From contig JAKQYE010000026.1 of assembly GCA_023356605.1 (NCBI GenBank), forward strand, positions 1-38,418: 38,418 nt of DNA, written 5' to 3'. The notes under the pieces were generated by a model. That model was not told the origin of the DNA. It was given only the letters and a program-made list of their open reading frames with translations, and did not search any database. The position numbers and the translations under genes are program-made. How positions within the stretch are numbered: the first letter of the stretch is position 1; each line of letters begins with the position of its first letter. The stretch is from Trichodesmium sp. MAG_R02 (GTDB lineage Bacteria > Cyanobacteriota > Cyanobacteriia > Cyanobacteriales > Microcoleaceae). This document shows, one piece after another, positions 6,337 through 38,246 of this stretch.

Positions 6337-6337
6337 T

Positions 6338-6372
6338 TAGAAAATACAAAAATCAGAATGATTGATTTTCTA
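6338..6372 (+). terminator. Possible weak terminator hairpin after the ATPase gene
   Basis: TAGAAAAT (6338-6345) pairs with ATTTTCTA (6365-6372) just after the stop codon, with ATCA/TGAT inside the loop. The stem is AT-rich and has no long T-tract, so termination is uncertain. Confidence 0.3.
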
Positions 6373-6473
6373 GTATTCCCTAAGTATTTCTTCGAGAATA
6401 TCAGAGTTAATTTTGGGTATCAGTTGTCAGTTATTAGTTATAAAAAAAGATAGAGACTTAACTTTGACATCCT

Positions 6474-6716
6474 CCCCGGCCTAAAGGCCCGGGGAAAAAA
6501 CTGGGCCGTAGCCCCTCGGCGGGTTGACATCTCACAGGCTGCTCCTACTTTGGCAGTAGTCTTATGGTGGCCGACTTGTCAGTTGTTTGTCTGGTGTAAG
6601 CCCACCCGCGACTAATATATTTCTTGGGAACTAAAAAGCAAGAAGGACATAACCTGTAGAAAAAAATCAACTAAAAAGTCGCCCTAGAAGGGCGAAGCTT
6701 TAAACCCAATTTTTCG
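6474..6716 (-). mobile_element. IS200/IS605-derived mini-element, copy 2 (tnpB internally deleted)
   Basis: This is a 243-bp unit with the same architecture as the one at 3245-3500. On the minus strand it has the left end cgaaaaattgggtttaaag with hairpin CGCCCttctaGGGCG and ttagttgatttttt. It then joins directly to caagaaatatattagtcgcgg (the tnpB 3' tail). The right end has the hairpin CCCCGGGCC-TTTA-GGCCGGGG and terminal GGAGGATGTCAA. The hairpins are better preserved than in copy 1, suggesting a younger insertion. Its right end is closest to that of the tnpB element at 20421-21802. Confidence 0.82.
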
Positions 6717-6735
6717 ATAAATTGTAATTTTTAAC

Positions 6736-7890
6736 TCACCTTGTGTGACTTCTATTTAACTGCTCTAAAGCCCATTTTGCTATTTTCTCAACTTCTGGAT
6801 CTGGATCATACTCTGCTTGTCGCAAGAGGTTGGTTACTTGAATGATCAACTCATACATTCGCATTAAATCTCGGATAGCATTTTTTCTGACTTCTGCATT
6901 ATCATTCTGAAGTGATATTACTAAAGCTCTGCTCATTGGTTTTAATGTTTTAGTACCAATTTCTGAGAGAGTTGCTAAAATTAAACTTTGCTGTTTAGAA
7001 TCAGAATCTATGAGTAAGTTGACTAATGGTTGAACAGCTCTAGAATCTCCTTTTTGACCAAGCTCCCAAATAGCTTTATGGCGTTTATTCGGGTCGAAGT
7101 TTTGCAATTCATTAATCAACTTCTCAACAATATTAACCTGAGGCAAAGGATAATTGTTTGGCTGAATAATATTGTCAAAGTTAGACTCTTGAACAATATA
7201 ATTTTTGTCAGTTGCTGTTGATAAATTTAGTTCAGTTTCTGCTTGTTCAGAATTATTATATTCTTGGGTATCCATAGAATAATTACTATCAACTATAGGA
7301 AATGTTTCTGCTTCAATTTCTTGGTCTTGATGATCTAATTTGGAGCTATTCTGGGAAATCGGTACATAAGCATTTTCCCCTGAATTTCCTTGTAATGCAG
7401 GAACAAAAGAATCTAGAGAATTTTCAGTATTAGCCACAGAATAGTTTTCGGAAGATACTGATAAGTTTCGGTTATTTACTTCAGAATAGTTAGTTTTATT
7501 ATCAGCTGAAGTTGCTTTTGATGTTTCCTCTGGATCTAAATCTTGAGGTTGATTATCGTCAAAAAGCTTGAGTAAAATGAATACTGCTGTGGCTGTGACT
7601 ATAACAGATATTATACTCAAAAGAAATAGTGTTTTTCGCTCCGCTAGAACCTTGAGTATGGAACGAATTGGTCTAGGTACTTTGGTTTTTAAGTCACTAT
7701 TTTGAGCAATATACAGATGAACTAGAGAATTAATTTGATGAGATTGTTTGAGATTTTCTGTTTTTGTTAAGGCACGATTGCTAAATTCCCATGTGCTAGA
7801 ATCATCAATTATTGCTCTACTTGGAGTTGGAGAAAAGCAAAAGAAAGTCAACCATATAATAATAAAAAAAGTGGATTTGTAGTTGAGCAT
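6736..7890 (-). CDS. Secreted or membrane-anchored HEAT-repeat protein
   Basis: The product has 384 residues. Residues 5-25 form a signal-peptide-like hydrophobic segment (FFIIIWLTFFCF, then PSRA). A strong transmembrane helix lies at about 88-109, followed by a long acidic Asn/Ser/Glu-rich linker (111-250). The C-terminal 125 residues contain HEAT/PBS-lyase-type helical repeats (for example KRHKAIWELGQKGDSRAVQPLVNLL and EVRKNAIRDLMRMYELI). HEAT repeats mediate protein binding; in cyanobacteria some act in phycobilisome chemistry, but nothing here indicates lyase activity. The gene is monocistronic, with its 3' end 20 bp from the mini-element. The topology (two hydrophobic segments) is inferred, and the partner is unknown. 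Confidence 0.75.
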   Translation of the reverse strand: MLNYKSTFFIIIWLTFFCFSPTPSRAIIDDSSTWEFSNRALTKTENLKQSHQINSLVHLYIAQNSDLKTKVPRPIRSILKVLAERKTLFLLSIISVIVTATAVFILLKLFDDNQPQDLDPEETSKATSADNKTNYSEVNNRNLSVSSENYSVANTENSLDSFVPALQGNSGENAYVPISQNSSKLDHQDQEIEAETFPIVDSNYSMDTQEYNNSEQAETELNLSTATDKNYIVQESNFDNIIQPNNYPLPQVNIVEKLINELQNFDPNKRHKAIWELGQKGDSRAVQPLVNLLIDSDSKQQSLILATLSEIGTKTLKPMSRALVISLQNDNAEVRKNAIRDLMRMYELIIQVTNLLRQAEYDPDPEVEKIAKWALEQLNRSHTR

Positions 7891-8198
7891 AATGTTCTTT
7901 CAGGAGTTTTATGAGGCAGCTTTTACATTAATAGGTCATTTGAGTGATCATGACCGTGAGCTAAAGCTAGAGGTTGAAGACATTATATTTAAGGGTTATT
8001 ATAGTTTAGCTTGACCTTCGATATCATTAGTTAAAAATAGATAACATGGAAGCTTTAGCAACAAAAATACTACTTTAACGAAGGCAAAATATTTCGGCAT
8101 TTAGAGACTATATCTTGAGAAAAAGTTTTGGCAAAAGCTAATATTTATTGAGTAATGGACAGAGCAATTTTGGAGTAGACAGAATTCGGTATTAAAGC

Positions 8199-8426
8199 TT
8201 TTATAGTTAAAGAATTAGTACCGCGAAATAACCTTGTGTCATAATAGATAACCCTAAAATTCATTTAGGACAAATAGGGATAGAAGTTATTGAAAAAGTT
8301 AGGACTAGTATCATGTATTTACCTCTTGATTCACCAGAATTTTTGCCCTATAAAACTTTTGGTCAAAAGTTAAAGTTATTATCAAACTTACATTCCGCAC
8401 GTCAACATGTAGTATATCAGACATAA
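8199..8426 (+). pseudogene. IS630-family transposase relic (C-terminal part)
   Basis: Translation gives FIVKELVPR, then after a frameshift near 8236 VIIDNPKIHLGQIGIEVIEKV, IMYLPLDSPEFLPYKTFGQKLK and SARQ. This follows the IS630/DDE_3 pattern: a DN-x-x-xH catalytic block, LPPYSPEF-x-PIE-x-x-WSKLK, then SARQ. The PIE glutamate is missing and the reading frame is broken, so it is inactive. No terminal inverted repeats were identified around it. Confidence 0.65.
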
Positions 8427-9185
8427 TATTGAAAGCCTTGCCTGATAATAACTCTGAAGTTTGTAAGTAAAAATACATATTACAACGACTATTGATAGTT
8501 ATCAGCAATAACAGAGGCTATAATCTACCTTATTCGTTAAAAACACCCTTGTAGTATACTTGAAGTGCGGGAAGTGGGATCAAAAAAATTAAAGCAAAAA
8601 AAGACAAATATTTAATAGACTTTATTACCTTAGCTATATTGTAAGTTATCCAAAAAGATACTTGCAACTGGTTTACCCATTGTCGTTACTATACCCTATA
8701 ATTGTGGGAATTGCTATAATAAAAGAGTCTACTCTGCCTTCAGCACTCTACCTCCTAATTTTTACTCAAACTTTAGTGAAAAAATGCTAAAAAAAGAGGT
8801 AAGCTAATACTCATTTAAAATGCGTATTAGTAAGCTAGAACTTAGAAGGTTTTTTCCTCCAAACGAGGCATACAATCAATTTGTCATTTAAATGCACAAA
8901 AGCTTGAAGTTCATATCATGTATGCATTTTACATTAATGACTACAGCCGTGGTAGTACAATGAAAGAAAATAACTTCAGTGGCCAGACTCTCTTATTTCC
9001 ATGGATGGTTCGATCGCTTTAATCATATATTGAAGATAGCAGAATTAACTATAACTACCCTATTTAAGTTATAATATTTTGCTGGTAGTTAGGACTCATA
9101 AGTCATGATTTTAAAGGTTTTCAGTGAAAATTAACTGTGACAAAGATTATCACAACCAATTTAGGATTACTAAGCTGTCGTGCAT

Positions 9186-9475
9186 TTAAACCACGTTAAC
9201 AGAATTTCCTTGATTTTTAAGTTGACGATTCCATATATAATGAGTTCTCCTTTATTTAAGAGTTGATGTAGTAAAAACTCTAACTCTTTAATTGATTTGA
9301 AAAGACGATTAGCAGTATACTATTTAGCAGAATGCCAAACCAATTTAATTAGGTTTTTTCAGGACTATATTCAGGTAGAAACTCTAAATATATCTTCGGT
9401 ATTTCGGCTTTATTTTATGTAATATCTCTTCTTTTTTATGAAAGATTGCATTATTTAAAATTCGGATAGATATTA
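9186..9475 (-). pseudogene. IS630-type (DDE_3) transposase relic, C-terminal part
   Basis: On the minus strand, fragments in different frames read NNAIFHKKK, then FLPEYSPE, then LVWHSAK and NRLFKSIKELEFLLHQLLNKGELII, ending near VNVV-stop at 9186. These correspond in order to the DNASFHK block, the LPPYSPELNPIE-x-xW block and the C-terminal tail of cyanobacterial IS630-like transposases. At least two frameshifts are required. Confidence 0.62.
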
Positions 9476-9589
9476 CTTTTAATTGAAATTAAAATAAGGA
9501 TGCAAATTGTTAAATTTATTTACTGACAATCTTTATGCGGTGTATTTTTGATAATCCTGATCCGATATTTACACTTACATAAGTGTCTT

Positions 9590-9626
9590 TGCGTAAGTCC
9601 TGATAGTATCTTTCCATAAGTCCTGA
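9590..9626. repeat. Fragment of the GGACTTACG repeat family
   Basis: The sequence tgcgtaagtcctgatagtatctttccataagtcctga repeats the right-hand arm of the 412-513 element twice. A small hairpin, ACACTT-acat-AAGTGT, lies just upstream at 9571-9586. Confidence 0.5.
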
Positions 9627-9697
9627 AAACATCATAAATTAAGGCAGTTGATACTCGTCAACGCTGCTTTAGTAGAGTTTGTACAGTATTCTCCTTA

Positions 9698-9947
9698 CAG
9701 CGGTTTTCATATGAATAAACCACAGTGTTCAAAGCAACCCATGGCATCATCTTCAGTAATTTGAGCGATCGCGCTTACTAATAACTCGATCCAGTTGTTC
9801 TGAAGTTCGAGGCTGATAAGAACGGAGGAAATTTTTAAATTTTGACCAGCTAGATTCGATAGGTGACTCTCTCTGGAGAGTAGGCTGGGTGTGAATATTA
9901 ATTCGGCTCCTGCTGAGTTAATCAAGTCTTTAATTCTTTGTCCTTTA
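9698..9947 (-). pseudogene. IS630-family transposase relic (C-terminal third), cut by another IS630
   Basis: On the minus strand GQRIKDLINSAGAELIFTP is followed by the PIESSWSKFKNFLRSYQPRTS block in another frame, and then by SAIAQITEDDAMGCFEHCGLFI and a stop. These are consecutive segments of one IS630 transposase C-terminus separated by frameshifts. The gene end overlaps the terminal repeat CAGCGGTTTTCATATGAATAAACCACAG (9698-9725), preceded by TA. Its 5' part is missing because a second IS630 copy, in the opposite direction, begins at 9948 after a TA. Confidence 0.7.
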
Positions 9948-10753
9948 CAGCGGTTTTCATATGAATGAGCCACAAAAGTTTAAAATGTGACTTCATACCA
10001 AAATAGTTATCTAGAGCGATCGCTAAACCACAAAAATGGCCAGACCATATTCACAAAATTTAGGCCGACCTGTGTAATGGGCCATTCAATACCAAGAAGG
10101 TTCTTAACGTCAAATAGCACAAAGGTTTCAAGGAACGTTTAACTTTTGTCCGTAATTTATTACGGCATTATCGAACCACAGGAACTGTGAATCCAAAGCA
10201 ACGTGGGGGAGGACCATTGATCTAAATTTGAGACTAATTTTGATTCTTTAATGAGCGCATAAAATTCAACAAAAACCAGATATTTTACTTTGTGAATTAT
10301 GGGAATATTTAGAAATTAGAACAGCAGTAAAAGTTAATCTATCAACAATGTATAGAATTTTCAAAAAAATTAATATAAGTAGAAAAAAAAGTATTTGTGC
10401 TTCCCTTCCAAGAGAGAGAAGATATTAAGCAAAAACTTTATTAGTATAGAAAATGGCTGGATGATCGTAGACATAAATAATTTGGTTTTTGTGGAAATTT
10501 CAGGAGTAAATTTAGGAATGACTCGTCTTTATGCTCGAGGAAAAGTAGGAGAGAGAGTAGTCAGTAATGCTCCATTAAATAAAGGTAGAAATACAAGTGT
10601 CTTAGGAGCCTTAAGCCTGGATGGCGTAAATAGCATCAATGACGGTAATTGGTAGTACAAATAAAAATGTGTTTGAAACATATGTAGAGCAAATTTTAGT
10701 ACCTCAATTATGGCCCGGAGCAATTGTATTGATGGATAATTTAAGTGTTCATA

Positions 10754-10882
10754 CAGCAGTTTTCATATCGGTAGACCACAGTAGGGACGTTTCGCTACGC
10801 GACATGCAATACATTTTTGTTATGCAACATCCCTACAAGGTTTTGGTTATGATGATGTAGTTTATCAACTAGAAAAGCGCTG
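10754..10882. mobile_element. 129-bp IS630-type MITE nested in transposase relic
   Basis: The element is flanked by TA on both sides (10752-10753 and 10883-10884). It begins with CAGCAGTTTTCATATCGG...ACCACA and ends with TGTAGTTTATCAACTAGAAAAGCGCTG, an imperfect inverted copy of the same end. Removing it and one TA restores the host reading frame as agtgttcataaagttcg (SVHKV). Its core carries a copy of the small palindromic repeat (10781-10836). Confidence 0.7.
10781..10836. repeat. Expanded small palindromic repeat, copy 3
   Basis: The arms gtagggacgt and gcaacatccctac enclose a longer centre (ttcgctacgcgacatgcaatacatttttgttat) than in the other copies, as if a second short repeat had been inserted. 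It lies inside the 129-bp MITE. Confidence 0.55.
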
Positions 10883-10971
10883 TAAAGTTCGTAGTAGAAG
10901 TTAACTATAACTGCAGATAGAGCTAAAGCCCTACTACAAACAAAAACTTTTTTCTTACTAATTATCCGGAA

Positions 10972-11066
10972 ATATAGTTATTTAAAATAAGAATGAAAAA
11001 CTTTTTATACTGAAACCTAGTTATAGCAGTAAAAACTTGTCTCAATCTAAATTTAAATGACTATAT
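10972..11066. repeat. 95-bp MITE, copy A
   Basis: The ends atatagttatttaaaataagaatga and tctcaatctaaatttaaatgactatat are near-perfect inverted repeats of about 25 bases. The centre (gaaaaactttttatactgaaacctagttatagcag) is shared with the copies at 30508-30600 and 31754-31848. Confidence 0.72.
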
Positions 11067-11104
11067 CACTAATTCTATGACTAGTCTCTCTAAAAAAACA
11101 GAAA

Positions 11105-11141
11105 AGCGTAGTCAAATCTCTAATTAATGATTAACTACGCT
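11105..11141 (-). terminator. Rho-independent terminator of the SdrD-like gene
   Basis: Reading the minus strand, the stem AGCGTAGTTAA / TTGACTACGCT (one mismatch over 11 bp, at 11105-11115 and 11131-11141) is followed by TTTTCTGTTTTTTT. It lies about 80 bases past the stop codon at 11221. Confidence 0.65.
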
Positions 11142-11220
11142 AAAAATTTAACTTTTAAATTAAGCCTCAGTTTTGGTCCTGAATTCTGGTACTATCCAAA
11201 ATACTAAATAAATCCAGATA

Positions 11221-14200
11221 TTATACACCGGCATTACCAAAATTCACACCAGGAACATTCTCACCAGCAGATATATTGATCAAACTTGGTTGACCAGAAG
11301 GCGGAAGAGTCTGATTAAAGACTGCTGCCTGATCTGGGTTTAAGTCTTGCCGAACCGTATAAGCAGCACTTGGTAAGTTTGAGAAACTATAGTTACCGTT
11401 GACATCACTAGCAACAAGTATCTCATTAGCATCTCGAACAGAGTTGTTATTCTGATCTAGGTAAACAACAACACCAGGAATATTAGGTTCACCAGGTTCC
11501 AGGATACTATTAGCATTGAGGTCTTCAAAAGTTACCCCACTAATACTACCAGTACCTGTAGGTGGTAGTGGCGGTGCTATAGGTGATATTGATTGTGGGG
11601 TAGTGCTGTTACCAAAGTTGATAAAGTTAGCATCATCCCCTGCAAATATGGTAACAGTTGGGTTTTGATTAGTTTGAAATAAACCTGGTAGTTGGACCTG
11701 TCGAACTGTGTAAGTACCAGGCGGTAAACCTTTAAAGTCGTATACTCCCAAAGAATCTGTAACCGCCTGACGTTCCTCATTGTCAAGGATTACATTACCA
11801 TTGCGGTCAAGGAATACGGTAGCACTAGGAATACCATTCTCTCCTGGATCTATCAGGCCATCACCATTAATATCGTTGAAAACAATACCACCAAGATCGG
11901 CAACAGGAAGGACAGCAGGTGGCAGATTTGTAGGATTATTAGCAAAGTTAACAAAGTCAGCGTTGTCCCCTTCTGCCAATGTTACTACCACAGGAGCAGG
12001 AGTAGTAGAGTCAGTGAAACCAGGTAGTGGTTCCTGACGAACAACATAAGTTCCTGGAGTCACAAACGGGATATCGTAGCGACCAAATTGGTCCGTGAAA
12101 GCAAACCGTTCATCAATGCCTCGTTCCCCGTTCTCGTTGGCATCTATGTAGATAGTAGCATTAGCCAGTTGAAGCTCACCAGCCTCCGCCTGACCATCAC
12201 CGTTATCATCTATAAATGCGATACCAGAAATATTCCCAAAATTAGGAGGAGCAAGTACTGGAGACTGCCCAAAATTAACTACTACATTAGAGTTCTCAAA
12301 CGGATCAACAGTAATTGGAAGATCTGTTGGAGTTGTAGCAGTATAGCTTTGTGAAACTGCGTTTGGATTATTCGGATCTGTAACAGGATCTGGTGAAATC
12401 AGTCGTAATGTGTAATTGCCAGGCAACAAACCAACAATTGCATAGTTTCCGTTGGTATCTGTGAAGGCATTAGGTTCAATATCTCGGTTGTCAAGAATAC
12501 CATTTTCATTTATATCTACATATACCTGAAAACGAGGTACACCCCTTTCTACCAATTCATCAGGGTCAAGGATACCATTACCATTAGCATCGTTAAAGTC
12601 TTGGATACCATTACTATTAAAGTCTTCAAAAACATTTCCTGTAATTAGAGTTTGTGGTTGGTTTCCAAAGTTGTAAACAACACTACGACCACCACCAACT
12701 GTTACTACTGCTGGTGGAGTAGTTTGAACAAACCCTGTACGATCAAGAATTTGTAGAAGCGGAAATGAGCCCGATAAACCAGATGTATCTAGACCATAAG
12801 TACCATTAGGACCACTAAGTTGATTTGGTTCAAAGCCCTGTATTTGTCCATCTGTGTTGGTATCTAGGAATACCTCAACACCGGGTAAACCAGCTTCCCC
12901 TTCCAGAGGTTCAAACAGTCCGTTACCATTGTTGTCCGCAAATACAATACCACTAACAGTATCTTTATCTGGTGACGTGACGTTAACACCTACATCAATA
13001 TTGGTGACACTTTGACCAAAGGGAAGATTGATTGGAGTTGGTGAGATATTGGGGTTTGGTAGTACCTCACCGGCAGTAACATTTATAACCGGGGGAGTGG
13101 CAGTTAAGAATAAGTTTTCTTGCTGAACAACACCAACTGTATAATTACCAGGGGTTACACCATTAAATGTATAACGACCATCAGGAGCTGTGAAGGTTTC
13201 AACTTCGTCTACATCGAGTATACCATCGCCATCTCTGTCTTCTTCCCCCTCACTTAGTACCCCGTCACCGTTGAGGTCTTCATTGCTATCTAGTCGTCCA
13301 TCACCATCTATATCTAAGAAAACTTGAGCAGTTGGAATACCTGCTTCCCCTGAATCTTGGACTCCACTGTTATTACTATCAGTAAAGATGATACCACTAA
13401 TACTGGTGTTCGGGTCGAAGATACTGGTATCACCAAAGTTATACACAACAGTCTGACCAGGAACAACCGGAATTAGGGGAGTAGGAGTAGTATTAACAAA
13501 ACCAGCAGGTGGTGTTTCTAATACTCTGAAGTTTCCTGGTGGCAATGTAAACCGATATTCACCGTTAGGATCTGTTTGTGTAACTGGTTCATTAGCTTCT
13601 GGGAAACCATTACTATTTAGGTCCACAAAAACTTGGACATCTATGAGTCTTGGTTCGTCAGGACCTGCTAAACCGTCAGCATTGCGATCGTCAAATTTAA
13701 CCCCAGTAATTGTACCAGGGCCATCTGTATTTATAGGGGGAGTTAAAGGAAGTGTTACTGATGCATCAGGTTCGCTACCAATATTGACAAAGTTAATATT
13801 GTCACCCTCAGCCAAGTTAATTACTGGATCGGGAGTAATTTGTCTGAAACCTGCTCCTTGAACTACTTTGACTGGATAAGTACCAGATGGGAGATTCTCG
13901 AAGCTATAGCGACCTTCCACATCAGTCATAGACTGGGGTTCACCCGCACTTAGCTCTTTGTCCTCATTAAGGTCTAGATAAACAGTGAATCCGGGAAGAC
14001 CAGGTTCTTCAGCATCTATTGCATTGTTACCATTGAGGTCATTAAATTTAGTACCAGCGATCCTGCCTGTTCCTGTTACTTGGCTACCAGTCCGCGTCGC
14101 ATCTTCAGGATTATTAGTCACAGTTGTTTGTTCTCCTCCCGTAATATCTCCTGTCGTAATATCTCCCCCGCTAGTTGTTTCTGTAACTTGACTTTCCGGA

Positions 14201-15840
14201 GCAGGTGTAGTAATAACAGCATTACCGACATTCAATACAATAGGTGGATCACCTTGTAGAATATTAATCGGTTGAACTATAGTAATTTCCTTATCTGGAG
14301 TAGTTTTCGAAAAATTAGGTTGAGGTATTTCTCTCAAAAAGTAAGTTCCTAACGGAAGATTATTAAAGCTATAGTCACCAGCAACATTTGATATTGAAGC
14401 TGGTTCATTAGGATCTAGTACATTGTTACCATTCGAGTCTAAATATAAAGTGAAATTAGCTAAACCTGGTTCTCCTGGATCTAAGAGTCCATTGGAATTA
14501 AAGTCATTAAACTTCTTACCTATCAATTCACCTTGAAGCAAAGGACTCTCAGGAGCTTGACCTATGTTGACAATATTAACATCTTCCCCACTTGCGACAA
14601 CAACGACTGGAGCTGGGGTTGTTTGAGTAAAACCAGGTTGGGGTACTACTTCGACAACGTAACTACCTGGAGGCAAGGTATTAAAACTATATTCACCTCG
14701 ATCGCCAGTAATTCTAAAAGGTTCATTCGGGTCAAAGATACCATTTTGATTCAGGTCTAGATAGACAGTGGAGTTGGATAAACCCATATCTCTTGGATCG
14801 ATGGCACCATTAGAATTATTATCTAAGAAATTAATACCAGAGATGCTATTGATTTGAGCATTAGCAAAGTTAACCCCTGATAAAGTCCCCCCACTAGGTA
14901 CATCAACAGTCTGAGATTGAGTTATTAGATTAAATTCTAGTTGTTGCTCTGCTTCCCGAATATTGAGGCGGGTTGCTGGCAAATTAGCTAAGAAGTAATC
15001 ACCATTCTCGTTAGTGACATCAAATGGTTCTCTTGGATCTAGAATATTATTACTATTGATATCTGCATAGATAGTAAAGTTTGGTATCCCAGATTCACCA
15101 AAATCTAAAATACCATTAGTATTACGGTCTAAGTATTTAACACCTTGAACATTACCTGTACCAACAGGAGTAATAATACCGATATCTAGAGCTACATTTG
15201 GTATTTCTTCTTCTGTTCCAGTAAAAATGATGGCTGGGTTAAGAGTTGTTCGGGCTTCATCTGCTTGACGGATGACATCCACGTTGAATAGACCAGATGT
15301 AACCTCTGTGAATGAGTAAAAACCAAACTGATCGGTTATACTGGTTATCTCACCTTCATCTAGAATCCCATTTCTGTTACCATCAAGAAATACTTCATAC
15401 CCAGAAATGACTGGCTCATTAGAGTCTCGGGCACCGTTAATATTTAGATCTTTAAATAATACACCACTAATATTACCGCCTGGGCCAGTTGCAGTGCTAC
15501 CAAATAGAAAACCTGAAACAGTAGGTTCTTCTGGACTCAGACTAATAAATGTAGGGTCTGGGATAGTTTGAACAAAACCAGGTTGCTGGATTTCCCGAAG
15601 AGTGTAAATTTCATTTAAGGGTAGGTTAGTAAAACTAAAGCTACCATCATCCCCACTAATTGATGATAGTTCATTAGGATCTAACTGACCATTATTGTTT
15701 TGGTCCAAGTATATAGTAAATCCTGGTAAGCCTGGTTCTAAGGGGTCGCGAAGGCCATCACGATTAAAGTCATTGTACTTGACACCGGAAATACTACCTG
15801 GACTACCACTGGGACTTAATTGGCTGTTTGTTGTATTCAC
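11221..15840 (-). CDS. Giant SdrD/Cna-B-like repeat protein with Ca-binding loops
   Basis: The protein has 1539 residues and consists almost entirely of 13 tandem beta-sandwich repeats of about 105-130 residues. Each opens with a block like ISGVKYNDFNRDGLRDPLEPG and continues with a dockerin/EF-hand-like YLDxNxNGxxDxxEP loop, YSFxNLPxGxY, and a T-P-x-x-V ending in NFG. These are the hallmarks of SdrD B-like (Cna-B type) domains, known from bacterial surface adhesins, and the D-x-N-x-NG loops should bind calcium. No N-terminal signal peptide, sortase motif or transmembrane anchor is visible. Export, if it happens, would need a leaderless route such as type I secretion. Repeat 8 and repeat 10 contain extra D-x-N/D-G loops. 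ATG 15840 is preceded by GGTGGAGGAG on the minus strand, a very strong ribosome site. It stands 616 bp downstream of ndhJ on the same strand but is probably a separate transcript with its own terminator. A surface or sheath structural role is inferred. Confidence 0.88.
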   Translation of the reverse strand: MNTTNSQLSPSGSPGSISGVKYNDFNRDGLRDPLEPGLPGFTIYLDQNNNGQLDPNELSSISGDDGSFSFTNLPLNEIYTLREIQQPGFVQTIPDPTFISLSPEEPTVSGFLFGSTATGPGGNISGVLFKDLNINGARDSNEPVISGYEVFLDGNRNGILDEGEITSITDQFGFYSFTEVTSGLFNVDVIRQADEARTTLNPAIIFTGTEEEIPNVALDIGIITPVGTGNVQGVKYLDRNTNGILDFGESGIPNFTIYADINSNNILDPREPFDVTNENGDYFLANLPATRLNIREAEQQLEFNLITQSQTVDVPSGGTLSGVNFANAQINSISGINFLDNNSNGAIDPRDMGLSNSTVYLDLNQNGIFDPNEPFRITGDRGEYSFNTLPPGSYVVEVVPQPGFTQTTPAPVVVVASGEDVNIVNIGQAPESPLLQGELIGKKFNDFNSNGLLDPGEPGLANFTLYLDSNGNNVLDPNEPASISNVAGDYSFNNLPLGTYFLREIPQPNFSKTTPDKEITIVQPINILQGDPPIVLNVGNAVITTPAPESQVTETTSGGDITTGDITGGEQTTVTNNPEDATRTGSQVTGTGRIAGTKFNDLNGNNAIDAEEPGLPGFTVYLDLNEDKELSAGEPQSMTDVEGRYSFENLPSGTYPVKVVQGAGFRQITPDPVINLAEGDNINFVNIGSEPDASVTLPLTPPINTDGPGTITGVKFDDRNADGLAGPDEPRLIDVQVFVDLNSNGFPEANEPVTQTDPNGEYRFTLPPGNFRVLETPPAGFVNTTPTPLIPVVPGQTVVYNFGDTSIFDPNTSISGIIFTDSNNSGVQDSGEAGIPTAQVFLDIDGDGRLDSNEDLNGDGVLSEGEEDRDGDGILDVDEVETFTAPDGRYTFNGVTPGNYTVGVVQQENLFLTATPPVINVTAGEVLPNPNISPTPINLPFGQSVTNIDVGVNVTSPDKDTVSGIVFADNNGNGLFEPLEGEAGLPGVEVFLDTNTDGQIQGFEPNQLSGPNGTYGLDTSGLSGSFPLLQILDRTGFVQTTPPAVVTVGGGRSVVYNFGNQPQTLITGNVFEDFNSNGIQDFNDANGNGILDPDELVERGVPRFQVYVDINENGILDNRDIEPNAFTDTNGNYAIVGLLPGNYTLRLISPDPVTDPNNPNAVSQSYTATTPTDLPITVDPFENSNVVVNFGQSPVLAPPNFGNISGIAFIDDNGDGQAEAGELQLANATIYIDANENGERGIDERFAFTDQFGRYDIPFVTPGTYVVRQEPLPGFTDSTTPAPVVVTLAEGDNADFVNFANNPTNLPPAVLPVADLGGIVFNDINGDGLIDPGENGIPSATVFLDRNGNVILDNEERQAVTDSLGVYDFKGLPPGTYTVRQVQLPGLFQTNQNPTVTIFAGDDANFINFGNSTTPQSISPIAPPLPPTGTGSISGVTFEDLNANSILEPGEPNIPGVVVYLDQNNNSVRDANEILVASDVNGNYSFSNLPSAAYTVRQDLNPDQAAVFNQTLPPSGQPSLINISAGENVPGVNFGNAGV

Positions 15841-20517: not shown

Positions 20518-21750
20518 ATGAAAGCAAGATTTAAGTACCGTATATATCCAACATTAGGACAAAAACAACGATTAGCAAGGCTATTTGGTTGTGTCCGTGT
20601 AGTTTGGAATGATAGTCTAGCTTGCTGTCAGGAAAAGTACAAACTAGGAAAGAAAAAACCGACTAATTCTGAACTACAAAAACAGTTTATTACTCTGGCT
20701 AAAAAGACTGAGAAAAAAAAATGGCTATCAGAAGTTTCCGCTATACCACTACAGCAATCTTTAAACAATTTAAACCAGGCTTATCAAAACTTTTTTAAAT
20801 CAACTCAAGGCAACAGGGAAGGTCAACCTATAAGACCTCCTAAATTTAAGAGTAGGAAGTCAAAGCAAACAGCTAGATTTACAAAGGGTGGATTTAAAGT
20901 TGGTCAGCATAAAGTCTACTTAGCTAAAATAGGAAAGCTGAAAATTGTGTGGTCAAGGGAACTACCCGCTATTCCATCATCAGTAACAGTAATCAGAGAT
21001 TCAGCTAATCGATATTTCTTGATTTTTGTAGTAGAAGTTTTGCCAGAAGTATTGTCTAAAACTTATAATTCAGTAGGTATAGATTTAGGAATTAAAACTT
21101 TTGCGACTATAGGGATGTTCCATACAACGTCCCTACATGGTAAAAAGATTGATACACCAAAACCACTAAAGAAACGAGTTAAGAAGTACCGAAAACTAAG
21201 TAAGTCATTATCTAAGAAAACTAAGGGTTCTAAACGATATGAAAAAGCTAGACTAAAAATAGCTAAATTTCATGCCAAACTGAAAGATACAAGGATAGAT
21301 TTTCTACACAAATTATCTACTAAAATAATTCGTGAAAACCAAACAATTGTTTTAGAGGATTTGAACATTTCTGGAATGGTTAAGAATCGGAAATTATCGA
21401 GAGCTATTTCAGACTTAGGCTGGAGAAAATTCAGAACATTTTTAGAAGGAAAAGCAGAAAAATACGGTCGCGTACTAAGAGTAATTAACCGTCGGGATCC
21501 CACATCCCAAACTTACTATTGTTGTGGATTTGAAGGTGGAAAATTAGATTTATCAATATCCTGAAGTGGGAATGTCGTACATTGTGGGGTTAAACATGGT
21601 CGTGTAGTGGAACAGAGTTCTATCGAGACGAAAATACAGCAAGAAATATATTAGTCGCGGGTGGGCAACCCGAGACAAAAAACGGACATGGAGGCTAGCA
21701 TAAGACTACTGCCAAAGTAGCAGCAGCCTGTGAGATGTCAACCTACTGAG
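20518..21750 (+). pseudogene. tnpB: tnpB RNA-guided nuclease, frameshifted at the C-terminus
   Basis: From ATG 20518 (KARFKYRIYPTLGQKQRLARLFGC) the frame stays open to 21564. It includes the first RuvC aspartate in GIDLGIKTFAT and the glutamate in VLEDLNISGM. After KLDLSIS a stop interrupts the frame. The remaining zinc-finger and third catalytic block continue in other frames: KWECRT, then CGVKHGR, then RDENTARNILVAGGQPETKNGHGG, a stop, and HKTTAKVAAACEMSTY. Intact TnpB needs that RDEN aspartate and both CxxC pairs, so this copy is inactive. A palindromic repeat at 21110-21135 is inserted in frame between FAT and KKIDTP, adding about nine residues in the RuvC region. An upstream ATG at 20464 only adds left-end sequence. 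Confidence 0.85.
21110..21135. repeat. Small palindromic dispersed repeat, copy 4 (inside tnpB)
   Basis: The sequence tagggatgttccatacaacgtcccta is an almost perfect palindrome (arms TAGGGAtGTT / AACgTCCCTA). It lies inside the tnpB frame without breaking it and is translated as IGMFHTTSLH. Confidence 0.75.
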
Positions 21751-23405: not shown

Positions 23406-24098
23406 ATGTCAGAAGATGAATTGTCGGTCAGTCGGGGCATAAAATATGCAGTTGATTTAATAATATGTATTGACGCTACAGGTTCAATGACTCCGGTTAT
23501 TGATTTAGTAAAGTCAAATGCTCTTGGCTTTTACAAAGAGATAGAAAACAGGATGAAGGAAAGGCAAAAAAATGTAGATCAACTTCGAGCAAAAGTAATT
23601 GTTTTCCGTGATTATTGGGCAGATAAACCTGACGAGGTAATGGTTAGTTCTGATTTTTTTGACTTGAGGGAACAATCTTCTGAATATGCTGACTTTGTAT
23701 CTTTGATTTATGCCAAAGGCGGAGGTGATGAGCCAGAAAATGGCCTAGAAGCTTTAGCAATAGCTTTAAACTCAGACTGGGAAAAGAGATCAGAGTTTCC
23801 TAAGCAACGGCATATTGTAGCTTTTTATACTGATGCTAGTGCTCACTCTTTAGAGAAAGAACCAAAACCTAGTCATTATCCCAATGATATTCCTAAAAAT
23901 TTTGATGAATTAACAGATTTATGGTCAGAAATGTCAGATTCGGGGAAAAGACTACTCTTATTTGCTCCAGAGGCTACTCCTTGGACAATGATTGCCAGTT
24001 CTTGGGAGCAGACTATCCATTATCCTTCTAAAGCAGGAGAGGGTCTTAAAGAATTTGAAAATGAAGAAATTCTAGCAGCAATTATTAATAGTATCTAA
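23406..24098 (+). CDS. vWA-domain protein, TerY-like
   Basis: The 230-residue protein is a single von Willebrand A domain. The metal-ion-dependent adhesion site is recognisable: D23-A-T-G-S27, the middle GGGDEPENGLEAL motif and the third aspartate in FYTDASAH. Such vWA proteins (TerY) bind partners through a metal and, together with a PP2C phosphatase and a kinase, form the TerY-P triad proposed by Anantharaman, Iyer and Aravind for tellurite/stress and conflict systems. Exactly those two enzymes follow here, at 24237 and 25890. No signal peptide or transmembrane helix is present, so it is cytoplasmic. It probably acts as the adaptor or substrate of the kinase/phosphatase pair. No other ter genes (terB, terC, terD) are in the window. 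Confidence 0.85.
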   Translation: MSEDELSVSRGIKYAVDLIICIDATGSMTPVIDLVKSNALGFYKEIENRMKERQKNVDQLRAKVIVFRDYWADKPDEVMVSSDFFDLREQSSEYADFVSLIYAKGGGDEPENGLEALAIALNSDWEKRSEFPKQRHIVAFYTDASAHSLEKEPKPSHYPNDIPKNFDELTDLWSEMSDSGKRLLLFAPEATPWTMIASSWEQTIHYPSKAGEGLKEFENEEILAAIINSI

Positions 24099-24236
24099 AA
24101 AATTTCTCTCTAAAAATTTTGGTTGATTACGGTAATAATTATGATGGTAGTAATTTAGTATTACTACCGAGTATTTTCTAAGTTAGAAGTATCTAACAAC
24201 AAGGGGAAAACATATATAGTTTCATATATAGAAATA

Positions 24237-25595
24237 ATGAATAAAGACCAAATTCTAGTTATCAGCTTAGACAATAAATTAGACAAAGGTGAAGACTTTC
24301 AGATTGCGGAAAACTATGACCAAGCAATTGTCATAGGAGTTTTTGATGGTTTAGGGGGAAGAATTTCAGGTACTGCTAAGGAAACGGGGGGAAGGATTGC
24401 TTCTAGAAAAGCAGCTGAAGTTACTAAGGATATTTTAGTAAAATCACAAGGTTATTTAGATAAAGATAGAGCTTTAGAAATTAAAGCTAAGAGTTGTCAA
24501 ATACTTAAACAGTTTGCTGAAGAAAATCTTCCCGTTTCCAGAATTAGAGGGAAATTAGCTTCTAAAAGGTTATGTTCTACTATAGGGGTTGCGAGTCTTT
24601 TTAAGAAATTAAATGACGCTCAAAAATATTTGGTTCAAATAGCGTGGATGGGAGACTCTCGTGTTTATTATTTGCACCCTCATCAAGGGTTACAGCAGTT
24701 AACTAAAGATGACTTAAAAGAAAGTAAGGATGCTTTAGAGGTTATCTATCAAGATTTACCTATGTCTAAGTTTTTAACAGCAGATCCAGAAGCAGATTGG
24801 GAAATTAATTACAAAGAATTTGAGTTCTCAGAAGAAGGATTTATATTGGCTTGTACTGATGGATGTTTTCAGTATTTATCTGCTCCGTGGGAGTTCGAAA
24901 AACTTTTACTAAAAACTTTAATAGAATCAGATTCTATGGAAGAATGGCATAATTTACTAACTAATTTTTATCGATATAATAAGTATGATGATGTCACTCT
25001 TGTGCTTTGCCCATTAGGAAATAATCAGCTCAACTTTCAAGATTTTCATAGTTCTTACCAATCACGTTTAGAGCTTCTAAACGAAAATTATAATGTTCAC
25101 CGCAAAAGTAGTCCTGATAATATAAAAAAAATGTGGGAGCAATATCGAAATGATTATGAAAATCGTCTGGAAAAAGTCAAAGTTAAAAACTATATCAATG
25201 CTGAAGAGGTAAAAACTAAAGATGTATATTTATCTAATTTAGAGTCGGAAACTGAAGTAATGGCAAGTTTTGAGGAAGAATCTATTGGTGATTCTTCTGA
25301 GTCAGAAACTGAAGTAATGGCAAGTATTGAGGAAGAATCTATTGGTGATTCTTCTGAGTTAGAAACTGAAGTAATGGCAAGTTTTGAGGAAAAATCTATT
25401 GGTGATTCTTCTGAGTCAGAAACTGAAGTAATGGCAAGTATTGAGGAAAAATCTATTGGTGATTCTTCTGAGTTAGAAACTGAAGTAATGGCAAGTATTG
25501 AGGAAAAATCTATTGGTGATTCTTCTGAGTCAGAAACTGAAGTAATGGCAAGTTTTAAGGAAGAATCTATTGGTAGATTATTCAAGGGAGGATGA
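24237..25595 (+). CDS. PP2C-family protein phosphatase with acidic repeat tail
   Basis: The 452-residue protein has a PP2C (PPM) catalytic domain at residues 1-262. Metal-binding and catalytic motifs are GED20F, VFD37GLGG, GDS141R, CTD208G and YDD252VTLV, all intact, so it should be an active Mn/Mg-dependent Ser/Thr phosphatase. A charged helical linker (270-330) leads to six tandem 19-residue repeats (337-450) of the type SETEVMASFEEESIGDSSE, rich in Glu and Ser. The last repeat is degenerate (SIGRLFKGG). It starts 138 bp after the vWA gene on the same strand. The likely partner is the kinase at 25890. Just past the stop, codons LESKESSNTKGGEKIFRQ continue a similar polar tail in another frame, suggesting a recent frameshift. 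Confidence 0.87.
   Translation: MNKDQILVISLDNKLDKGEDFQIAENYDQAIVIGVFDGLGGRISGTAKETGGRIASRKAAEVTKDILVKSQGYLDKDRALEIKAKSCQILKQFAEENLPVSRIRGKLASKRLCSTIGVASLFKKLNDAQKYLVQIAWMGDSRVYYLHPHQGLQQLTKDDLKESKDALEVIYQDLPMSKFLTADPEADWEINYKEFEFSEEGFILACTDGCFQYLSAPWEFEKLLLKTLIESDSMEEWHNLLTNFYRYNKYDDVTLVLCPLGNNQLNFQDFHSSYQSRLELLNENYNVHRKSSPDNIKKMWEQYRNDYENRLEKVKVKNYINAEEVKTKDVYLSNLESETEVMASFEEESIGDSSESETEVMASIEEESIGDSSELETEVMASFEEKSIGDSSESETEVMASIEEKSIGDSSELETEVMASIEEKSIGDSSESETEVMASFKEESIGRLFKGG
25245..25586 (+). repeat. Six 57-bp in-frame tandem repeats
   Basis: Six units of 57 bp (starting at 25245, 25302, 25359, 25416, 25473 and 25530) are nearly identical at DNA level, indicating recent slippage or recombination. 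Variation is limited to a few positions: tcA/ttA at the start (S or L), Ttt/Att (F or I) and Gaa/Aaa (E or K). Confidence 0.92.
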
Positions 25596-25889
25596 GAGTC
25601 AAAATTAAAAAAAATTGGAATCAAAAGAATCTTCTAACACAAAAGGTGGGGAAAAAATATTTCGTCAAAATGAAATCCAAAAAGATGATACTCAATCTGG
25701 TTTATAGAGTATCTTTATTGTTGAGTTTAGGAGATGAGGTATAGAGGATATTGAGAAAGGCTTAGACTAAAATAGGTAAAAGTATTTTTTGATCACCGGC
25801 TTTGATATGATTGGTTTTAATTGTGAGAAAATATTCATACAAATATACTCCAAAAACCGTTCAGATAATTCATCATTAAGAGGAAAAAA
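25596..25889. other. Spacer between the phosphatase and kinase genes
   Basis: 294 bp without a gene. The first 110 bases keep an open polar frame that may be the former phosphatase C-terminus. The kinase ribosome site aagagg lies at about 25878-25883. Confidence 0.45.
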
Positions 25890-26984
25890 ATGGCTTATAA
25901 AAAAGGTGATAAAATTGGCAAATATATTATTACTCGTGACTTCGATAGTACTAATGGTGGTCAAGGTCAATGGGGTTTTGCTGAATATAATGGTGATGAG
26001 TATTTTATCAAAAAATTTCTCAATCCGGTATATCCTGAAGTAAAAGCACCAGGAAGTGAGAAAGGCAAACAAAAGAAAAAAGATAAATGTAAAGAATTTG
26101 AAAGAAGACATCTAGCAATGATGAAAGCTCTAGAATCTTGTGGTGATGGTGGTTTAGTTGTTAAAACTACGGATTTTTTTAAGTGTGGCGATGAATTTGG
26201 CAGTCATTACCTTAAAGTATGCCAAAAAGTTGATACTAGCAATTTATCTAATCAAGTTTATAACCTTAATTGGGAAAAGCGATTATTTGTAATGCTAACT
26301 TCGGCTGGTGCCTTGAAAATGTTACATAAAAATGGCATTATTCATTTAGATTTAAAACCAGATAATATTTTAATTCAAGAGTGGGGAGGAAAATTAATTG
26401 CCAAGATTATTGACTTCGATAGTAGTCTTATTGAAGGTGATTCAATGCCTTATGAAGAATTAGTAGGAGACTCTCTTTATCTATCTCCCGAATTTGCTAA
26501 ACATATTAATACTCATGGTGAAGAATTACCACCTACTAAAAAGTCTGATGTGTTTTCTTTGGGATTAATATTTTTTCAGTATTGTACGGGAAGATTACCG
26601 AGTTTTTCTGATAAATATAATTACCCCTATGAAGCTTTACTTAATGGGGAAAAACTGGAATTACCAATAAATTTTTTGATTAGCGCAGAAGATAAAGAAC
26701 TAGCAGAAAAAGTTATTTTCAAGTTAATTGAAAAAATGTTAATTTTGGATCCACATGCACGAATATCAATTGATGAAGCCCATGATAATTTAAAAGCTAT
26801 CTGTAAGGAAAAATTACCTAAATTTTCTCCAATAACTTCTCCGTCAGAAAAAAACAAGACATTATTGGAAGGTAGCCAAATCAAAATAGGTTTAAAAACA
26901 ACAAACCAGGAAAAGTCAAAAGAAAAAAAAGATTACCCAAAATCATCTAGTAGGGTTAGGTTTAACTTTCCCAGAAAGGGTTAA
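25890..26984 (+). CDS. Divergent Ser/Thr protein kinase of the TerY-P type triad
   Basis: The 364-residue protein is a Hanks-type kinase at residues 5-310. The glycine-rich loop is loose (TNGGQGQWGF, 21-30) and the ATP-anchoring lysine is in YFIKKF (41-42). The catalytic loop is H152-L-D154-LKPDN159, the metal aspartate D175 is in an unusual DFD instead of DFG, the APE motif is SPE (199-201), and D220 of the F helix (KSDVFSLG) is present. All key residues needed for activity remain, so it is probably active. A basic, Lys/Ser-rich tail (315-364) has no membrane segment, unlike PknB-type receptor kinases. It follows the vWA and PP2C genes on the same strand. ATG 25890 has aagagg upstream; a different frame at 25789 is not coding. 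Confidence 0.87.
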   Translation: MAYKKGDKIGKYIITRDFDSTNGGQGQWGFAEYNGDEYFIKKFLNPVYPEVKAPGSEKGKQKKKDKCKEFERRHLAMMKALESCGDGGLVVKTTDFFKCGDEFGSHYLKVCQKVDTSNLSNQVYNLNWEKRLFVMLTSAGALKMLHKNGIIHLDLKPDNILIQEWGGKLIAKIIDFDSSLIEGDSMPYEELVGDSLYLSPEFAKHINTHGEELPPTKKSDVFSLGLIFFQYCTGRLPSFSDKYNYPYEALLNGEKLELPINFLISAEDKELAEKVIFKLIEKMLILDPHARISIDEAHDNLKAICKEKLPKFSPITSPSEKNKTLLEGSQIKIGLKTTNQEKSKEKKDYPKSSSRVRFNFPRKG

Positions 26985-27065
26985 AGATATATAATTAGAT
27001 CTAGTTCGTTCTGAGAAGTACCTAATATAAAATTCAAGCTAATCATAGATTATAGATTTTACTAA

Positions 27066-27800
27066 ATGTCTATTTACAAGTGTAACGAGTGTAGTCACGA
27101 ATACAGTCAACTGTCAAAACCTAATGAGTGTGAGGTTTGTGGTGCAAATAATTTTCAAGTTATAGAAGAAAAGAAAGAATTACGATCTAAGGTAGTTCAA
27201 ACATTAATTCCTTCAATTATTGATAAAACTATACTTGATGAAAGTTTTATTAAGCTATCATCGTTTTGGTCGCCAATTAGTCAATTTGCCAAGTTTGAAG
27301 ATAGGAGTTTATTTCAGCAAGTTTCAAAACCTAACTGGGGTGAATGGAGTGTTTTAAATACTAATTCTTCGCTCCATAATGTTCAAAAAACTGATTACTG
27401 TTTAAATGTAAAGAAAGTAGATGGTCCTAAGAACTGTCTTTATGGAATACTTACTACAGTTCAAGAACCTAAATTTCTAAATTGTTATTATTTATTGATT
27501 ACAAGCAATGGTCTTTTTTCTCTGGGAAAACACTCCAGAAAAAATTGGCAACATTACATAAACAGAAAGAAGCATAGTTCAATAAAACAAGGTGATAGTC
27601 TTAATAGATTAAGAATAGTTACTGAAGGTAATTTAATTACAGGATTTATTAATGGCCAAGAGGTAGGGAGTTTTAGAGATAATTCCACACCCTACAAATC
27701 TACGAATATAGGAGTATACTCAACAAGTAATGAACAAGGAAATGGAGTAGCTGTATATTTTAATAAAATTAAAGTTATAACTACTATTTTCAAAGAATAA
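27066..27800 (+). CDS. Zinc-ribbon protein with C-terminal beta-sandwich-like domain
   Basis: The 244-residue protein begins with a rubredoxin-like or zinc-ribbon module: CNEC at residues 5-8 and CEVC at 22-25. A helical linker (33-75) follows. The C-terminal part (about 80-244), with YYLLITSNGLFSLGKHS, GDSLNRLRIVTEGN, TGFINGQEVGSF and GVYSTSNEQG...VYFNKIKV, resembles concanavalin-like/DUF1080 (3-keto-disaccharide hydrolase-type) sandwich domains. These are often attached to signalling proteins and bind glycans or other ligands. It lies 81 bp after the kinase in the same direction and closes the four-gene block. Function is unknown; a sensor or adaptor for the kinase is inferred. Confidence 0.72.
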   Translation: MSIYKCNECSHEYSQLSKPNECEVCGANNFQVIEEKKELRSKVVQTLIPSIIDKTILDESFIKLSSFWSPISQFAKFEDRSLFQQVSKPNWGEWSVLNTNSSLHNVQKTDYCLNVKKVDGPKNCLYGILTTVQEPKFLNCYYLLITSNGLFSLGKHSRKNWQHYINRKKHSSIKQGDSLNRLRIVTEGNLITGFINGQEVGSFRDNSTPYKSTNIGVYSTSNEQGNGVAVYFNKIKVITTIFKE

Positions 27801-30228: not shown

Positions 30229-30302
30229 ATCATTATCAATATTAACTTTCATTGTCTAACTCCTTATCATTATCAATATTAACTTTCATTGTCTAACTCC
30301 TT
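30229..30302. repeat. Exact 37-bp tandem duplication
   Basis: The unit atcattatcaatattaacttt... (37 bp) occurs twice, back to back, without a mismatch. Confidence 0.9.
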
Positions 30303-38121: not shown

Positions 38122-38134
38122 AATAGAGAGTAGG

Positions 38135-38246
38135 TTAGGTGTCAGGTGTTAGGTGTTAGGTGTTAGGTGTTAGGTGTTAGGTGTTAGGTGTTAGGTGTTA
38201 GGTGTTAGGTGTCAGGTGTTAGGTGTTAGGTGTCAGGTGTTAGGTT
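38135..38246. repeat. 16-unit TTAGGTG heptamer array
   Basis: Sixteen uninterrupted 7-bp units (112 bp). Units 2, 12 and 15 read TCAGGTG, the last reads TTAGGTT, and all others are identical. Short tandem heptamers are known from filamentous cyanobacteria. The array lies where the promoter or leader of the minus-strand gene at 37264-38121 should be. Confidence 0.95.

Follow-up and report, generated by a model that had tools for sequence, protein, structure and literature searches.

A predicted phospho-switch in Trichodesmium built on a VWA_4 triad, parallel to TerY-P, with a zinc-ribbon partner

Contig JAKQYE010000026.1 of the cyanobacterial genome Trichodesmium sp. MAG_R02 (GenBank assembly GCA_023356605.1) carries four genes in a row that encode a vWA protein, a PP2C-type phosphatase, a Hanks-type kinase and a zinc-ribbon protein. 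Having analysed positions 1 to 38,418 of this contig (the window), we think that the four-gene cassette probably acts as a stand-alone switch based on reversible Ser/Thr phosphorylation, predicted to belong to a family of vWA/PP2C/kinase triads that runs parallel to TerY-P and is accompanied by a zinc-ribbon partner; we refer to these as VWA_4 triads, after the Pfam family of their vWA protein. TerY-P triads occur both as an antiphage system and within large restriction systems, and how they work is still a puzzle. An independent second family that shares the gene order, the kinase oddities and the zinc-ribbon link of TerY-P, but carries the ribbon on separate, varied proteins, would be a natural way into the role of the ribbon and the target of phosphorylation; should the ribbon serve as a docking tag, its bearers would tell what feeds the switch and what it acts on.

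Open reading frames (ORFs, called mechanically throughout), profile searches and a structure model bear out the arrangement that a sequence-only reading of this DNA had described: four genes on one strand for a vWA protein, a PP2C, a kinase and a protein combining a zinc ribbon with a sandwich domain. All four ORFs are intact, with gaps of 138, 294 and 81 nt in gene order. To survey relatives, a vWA alignment alone was used as query against one species-level collection of 84,980 genomes, and 80 of the 336 relatives recognised were kept. In 70 of these 80 vWA-selected loci, the vWA gene has a PP2C gene and a kinase gene next to it, both from the families found in the window, on the same strand and within a few kilobases, in two main orders (vWA-PP2C-kinase or PP2C-kinase-vWA). 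The triads come from at least seven phyla: Cyanobacteriota, Bacillota, Actinomycetota, Chloroflexota, Bacteroidota, Spirochaetota and Pseudomonadota. Thus, vWA, PP2C and kinase cluster far beyond chance. Comparison of the three distance matrices gave correlations of 0.71-0.79 (at most 0.14 after shuffling); these contain shared species history and so show joint inheritance, not contact. A failure of the homologues to co-occur, which the sequence-only reading had named beforehand as grounds for refutation, was thus not what the survey showed: gene linkage and correlated distances both speak for co-occurrence.

The cassette is accessory: of the 386 cyanobacterial genomes sampled, only 7 encode a close relative of the vWA protein (at least 54% identical), and within the genus the kinase is present in 4 of 7 genomes. 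Mobile copies of the triad lie on plasmids of Calothrix sp. 336/3 and Herpetosiphon aurantiacus and on one mobile contig. Within Trichodesmium/Okeania, dN/dS is 0.17-0.38 for the core genes and 0.45-0.60 for the fourth gene, indicating constraint on every gene of the set, weakest on the fourth. Several loci, mostly from Cytophagales (L041, L042, L043, L048, L085 and L105), encode the vWA but have neither PP2C nor kinase genes around it, which may reflect use of this family on its own; some of these contigs end close by. A triad is also present on MT836186.1, labelled 'Bacteriophage sp.' (L017). Its kinase domain is identical in the tree to that of a Faecalibacterium prausnitzii locus (L078), some of its ORFs look recombinase-like by eye, and it is probably a bacterial mobile element. 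A viral origin of the cassette was rejected, as a scan of IMG/VR gave one remote match (24% identity) and MT836186 looks bacterial.

The window vWA protein matches PF25106 (VWA_4) with 33.1 bits, above the gathering cut-off of 27, and its D23-x-T25-x-S27 (a MIDAS-like DxTxS motif), D108 and D143 are invariant in 73/73 loci. The phosphatase scores 22.2 bits against PP2C_2, slightly below the cut-off of 24, and matches Stp1-type PP2C with an E value of 4e-11. Its metal ligands E19/D20/D37/D208/D251 are present; across the loci, E19, D20, D37 and G38 are kept in 73/73, and D140, D208 and D251 in all 71 that cover those sites. The kinase matches Pkinase with 94.9 bits and has N159, and its K41, D154, K156 and D175 are kept in all 73 loci. 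The PP2C and the soluble kinase thus both have their catalytic residues. In the window kinase HRD is changed to HLD and DFG to DFD; the HRD arginine is missing from the kinase in 73/73 loci and DFD replaces DFG in 71 of them. In the kinase tree, window-type kinases group as a single clade (SH-aLRT 96), separate from the Hanks kinases encoded elsewhere in the genome, and long branches keep the TerY-P kinases from being placed. A second vWA copy occurs at L023:8104-8781 (where the MIDAS acidic residues are lost), in L024 (where the copies are broken up) and at L039:9866-10534.

Features of the four-gene cassette, in window coordinates
Feature	Position	Strand	Basis
vWA protein, 230 aa, Pfam VWA_4	23406..24098	+	ORF list; PF25106 profile; residues checked over 73 loci
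PP2C-type Ser/Thr phosphatase, 452 aa, acidic repeat tail	24237..25595	+	PP2C_2 and Stp1-type profiles; metal ligands
57-bp x 6 tandem repeat within PP2C gene, 19-aa unit SETEVMASIEEESIGDSSE	25242..25583	+	TRF
Hanks-type protein kinase, soluble, 364 aa	25890..26984	+	Pkinase profile; catalytic residues; kinase-tree clade
Zinc-ribbon protein, 244 aa, C-terminal galectin/CBM66-like beta-sandwich ~70-240	27066..27800	+	profiles, model, fold match

The window kinase has no Cys pairs, and a ribbon is encoded by the next gene. The product of that fourth gene contains a pair of CxxC motifs (C6/C9 and C22/C25), and its AlphaFold model shows a confident ribbon (pLDDT 85-89), a low-confidence linker and a jelly roll of moderate confidence. 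In a fold match based on this model, the jelly roll comes closest among solved folds to CBM66 (Z 12.4), followed by galectins (about 11); profile searches also gave weak matches to 3-keto-disaccharide hydrolase and to NF045720. The sequence-only reading had taken the fourth gene for an unusual addition to the triad. Instead, such a partner proved commonplace: a zinc-ribbon ORF lies near the triad in 53 of 77 loci, and in 17 of the 18 cyanobacterial ones. Zinc ribbons were found by Cys pattern, which Pfam backs in part (31/135 neighbours match Zn_Ribbon_1). The motif occurs in 106/267 near same-strand ORFs (40%) compared to 14/161 distant ones (9%; p = 4e-13). A zinc-ribbon partner beside the triad is therefore the rule, not a peculiarity of Trichodesmium.

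What follows the ribbon varies from locus to locus; membrane segments were judged by eye. The Trichodesmium protein has its galectin-like C-terminus and no evident membrane segment, its Okeania orthologue has a ribbon, a sandwich, a likely transmembrane segment and a PDZ domain, and the Iningainema protein combines the ribbon with a coiled coil, a likely membrane segment and PPC. In ten Microcoleus/Planktothrix/Nostoc-type loci we read the partner as carrying a YbjN-like domain, which Pfam does not name. KA1-domain matches of a model of this YbjN-like partner were set aside as weak (best E 0.06, model pLDDT 53). In Clostridia the partner C-termini are TPR, transglutaminase or LRR. A protein with FHA and subtilase domains adjoins one Clostridial triad (L061:9697-12411); its FHA domain would bind phosphothreonine. 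In one cyanobacterium, at L020 only, a zinc ribbon is fused to the kinase itself, followed by two S1 domains. This fusion, together with the position of the ribbon in canonical TerY-P kinases, argues that ribbon and kinase work together.

These features suggest how such a switch might operate. The kinase, of a non-RD, DFD type, would phosphorylate its partners and the PP2C would undo this phosphorylation, while the vWA protein is predicted to be a metal-dependent scaffold that keeps enzyme and target together. With less assurance, we propose that the partner protein could dock through its zinc ribbon, and that the partner's variable C-terminus, in Trichodesmium a lectin-like sandwich, may sense the signal or execute the response. 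A broader possibility, which we put forward tentatively, is a separate system of bacterial phospho-signalling, widespread and built around a single conserved core of kinase, phosphatase and vWA protein. Many interchangeable partners would share this core, directed to it by a zinc-ribbon tag and differing in their sensing or effector domains.

As the vWA protein had been described as TerY-like, we compared the window set with two TerY-P references, the triad of a Klebsiella ter plasmid and YegL/PphC/YegI of E. coli. By profile search, TerY and YegL belong to PF00092 and have the MIDAS motif DxSxS, whereas the window vWA belongs to VWA_4. BLASTP of the window vWA against YegL gives nothing significant, hhalign against TerY/YegL gives a probability of 23%, and the canonical TerY-P profiles recognise no window-type protein, PP2C and kinase included; among the surveyed loci they match only in L053. 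In this locus, from an uncultured proteobacterium (RUG065), a complete canonical TerY-P triad (4907-8819) is followed 178 bp downstream by a window-type vWA, a kinase, three Cys-pair proteins and a PP2C, all within an array at 4907-14711. The two kinds of triad are therefore separate families able to share one array. On the strength of Pfam family, profiles and this tandem locus we rejected TerY membership of the window vWA; as judged by sequence comparison, the VWA_4 triad is a family distinct from TerY-P and parallel to it. A vWA protein placed outside the TerY family by profile searches was the other result that the sequence-only reading had said would refute it, and this is the result obtained. 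Of the TerY-P-type triad proposed earlier, the conserved triad and its phospho-switch architecture survive; the family membership does not.

Might the cassette nevertheless be a true TerY-P triad that has merely diverged? Canonical TerY-P (Anantharaman 2012, as cited in PMC11090510) likewise has three components, encoded by adjacent genes on one strand in the order vWA-PP2C-kinase, which is that of the ter-plasmid triad. Its kinases read HSD...DVD, the same two oddities as in window-type kinases, in which the HRD arginine is likewise absent and a DxD replaces DFG, and a zinc ribbon is tied to the kinase. PphC matches PP2C_2 with 176.7 bits, and relatives of the window PP2C in L020, L017 and L022 score above the cut-off of this same family. 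Against this stand the other vWA family with its DxTxS motif, the low hhalign probability, the failure of the TerY-P profiles and the coexistence of both kinds in L053. The placement of the ribbon also differs, being C-terminal in the canonical kinase (its Cys pairs are visible in L111 and L053) and in a separate protein in the window. Taken together, we regard simple divergence from TerY-P as improbable. Accidental adjacency of four unrelated genes, for which one could cite the gaps of 81-294 nt and an operon that is unproven, is next to negligible given linkage kept across phyla and the correlated distances of three families. Certain observations do count against our preferred reading, a VWA_4 phospho-switch with a ribbon partner. 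By the Cys pattern used, 24/77 loci have no zinc-ribbon ORF nearby; the ribbons are of mixed type (RCKP-like, RanBP-like and Zn_Ribbon_1), which makes a common docking role a guess; the 294-nt gap ahead of the kinase leaves room for separate transcription; and the loci are phylogenetically non-independent, so that p-values are optimistic.

What such a switch would serve may be read in two ways. It could be a strict antiphage (conflict) system in which infection makes the phospho-switch arm or unleash a killing response, as Gao et al. proposed for TerY-P, a reading we consider credible, though short of an even chance. Published TerY-P is active against T7-like phages, as reported in PMC7699616, and several surveyed loci have neighbours that fit. 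At L020:2413-8853, possibly a composite defence locus, genes for vWA, PP2C and kinase-ZnR-S1-S1 precede an McrB-like AAA gene and a LlaJI-type restriction gene. An NB-ARC STAND gene stands beside eight cyanobacterial loci (L021-L024, L035, L036, L039 and L040), mostly divergent, NACHT or nSTAND3-HEAT genes adjoin Streptomyces/Actinomadura loci, and L053 is in tandem with a canonical TerY-P triad. The patchy distribution of the cassette among cyanobacterial genomes and within the genus would also fit defence. However, PADLOC matches among 135 neighbours are scattered and mostly single, and the genes next to the Clostridial loci, for ribbon-plus-membrane proteins, MatE, MurJ and transglutaminases, look envelope-related, not like defence genes. 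In the window no effector nuclease or toxin was recognised, and the copy sits by photosystem genes. The suggestion of a stress or phage role made from sequence alone therefore fares unevenly: the McrBC/LlaJI-type, NB-ARC, NACHT and nSTAND genes beside some relatives agree with it, while the scattered PADLOC matches and the position of the window copy between psbE and a radical-SAM gene do not.

The other possibility, which we hold only tentatively, is envelope or stress signalling, in which membrane-spanning ribbon proteins with outward lectin, PDZ, PPC, LRR or protease domains would feed or receive the signal. The likely membrane segments in the Okeania protein (with sandwich and PDZ) and the Iningainema protein (with PPC), and the ribbon-plus-membrane, transglutaminase, LRR and FHA-subtilase proteins of Clostridia, point in this direction. 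The Trichodesmium partner, with no evident membrane segment, the YbjN-like cyanobacterial partners, which look soluble, and the assignment of membrane segments by eye argue against it.

Several described systems resemble the cassette. The TerY-P of Gao et al. (2020), whose OB-fold variant those authors showed to be antiphage (described in PMC11090510), is likewise a stand-alone set of vWA, phosphatase and kinase. Its kinase bears an OB-fold, comparable to the S1 domains of L020, the comparison here being by description only. TerY-P with a kinase-ribbon fusion is described by Bell et al. (2024; PMC11090510); in Type II/III-A CoCoNuT systems, kinase-ribbon, PP2C and vWA occur together with a restriction partner, as in L020, and with a duplicated vWA whose MIDAS is degenerate, as in L023. 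Their vWA has DxSxS, in contrast to the DxTxS of window-type proteins. Kaur et al. (2020; PMC7159879) described Actinobacterial sets, linked to GAP1-N2 GTPase systems, in which a kinase with a zinc ribbon and a beta-rich domain occurs next to PP2C and a lone vWA. The comparison with these sets is by description. The Actinobacterial loci examined showed no GAP1 gene, and none was identified in the neighbourhood of the window; DO-GTPase and GAP1 genes were not found among the proteins scanned, not exhaustively, from L062, L084 and L103, where NACHT or nSTAND3 is present. In a partial search of the literature, we found no description of a VWA_4 triad or of its separate ribbon partners.

The PP2C tail, six copies of an acidic, Ser/Thr-rich 19-aa unit encoded by a 57-bp tandem repeat, is a detail that the sequence-only reading had missed. 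Three Trichodesmium metagenome-assembled genomes (L029, L030 and L032) have a repeat unit of 19 aa at the same place with a different sequence, and the repeat is absent from the Okeania PP2C (L031). The final unit in the window diverges from the others at its end, and past the stop codon (25596-25700) lies an out-of-frame stretch resembling the Okeania tail, which suggests a remnant of a longer tail, through frame slip or truncation. The repeat tail is fast-changing and probably disordered. It might be a phosphorylation target, although its sequence is not conserved. A minus-strand ORF at 25190-25624 was rejected as a gene, being the mirror image of the repeat array.

The cassette is flanked by psbE (recognised by eye) on one side and the radical-SAM gene on the other, and the same flanking genes stand beside two other Trichodesmium copies (L019 and L029). 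Its closest relative in the whole-genome set is from the same genus (85% match), and a contig of T. erythraeum GBRTRLIN201 also matches at 85% in a scan of named genomes. A Pfam scan of the ten larger window ORFs found neither defence genes nor ter genes (terB/C/D), smaller ORFs lying outside the scan. PADLOC, run on the four cassette proteins, gave matches for the kinase only (mad6, MkoA and PD-T4-6), which we read as generic Hanks-kinase matches. On these results we rejected the window as a defence island. Elsewhere in the window are an IS605 OrfB/TnpB-type transposase (20521-21564) that seems to end inside its C-terminal domain, a minus-strand gene (11221-15840) for a 1539-aa protein with ten SdrD_B-like domain matches, 16 repeats of the heptanucleotide GTTAGGT (38134-38245) and an exact direct duplication of 37 bp (30229-30302).

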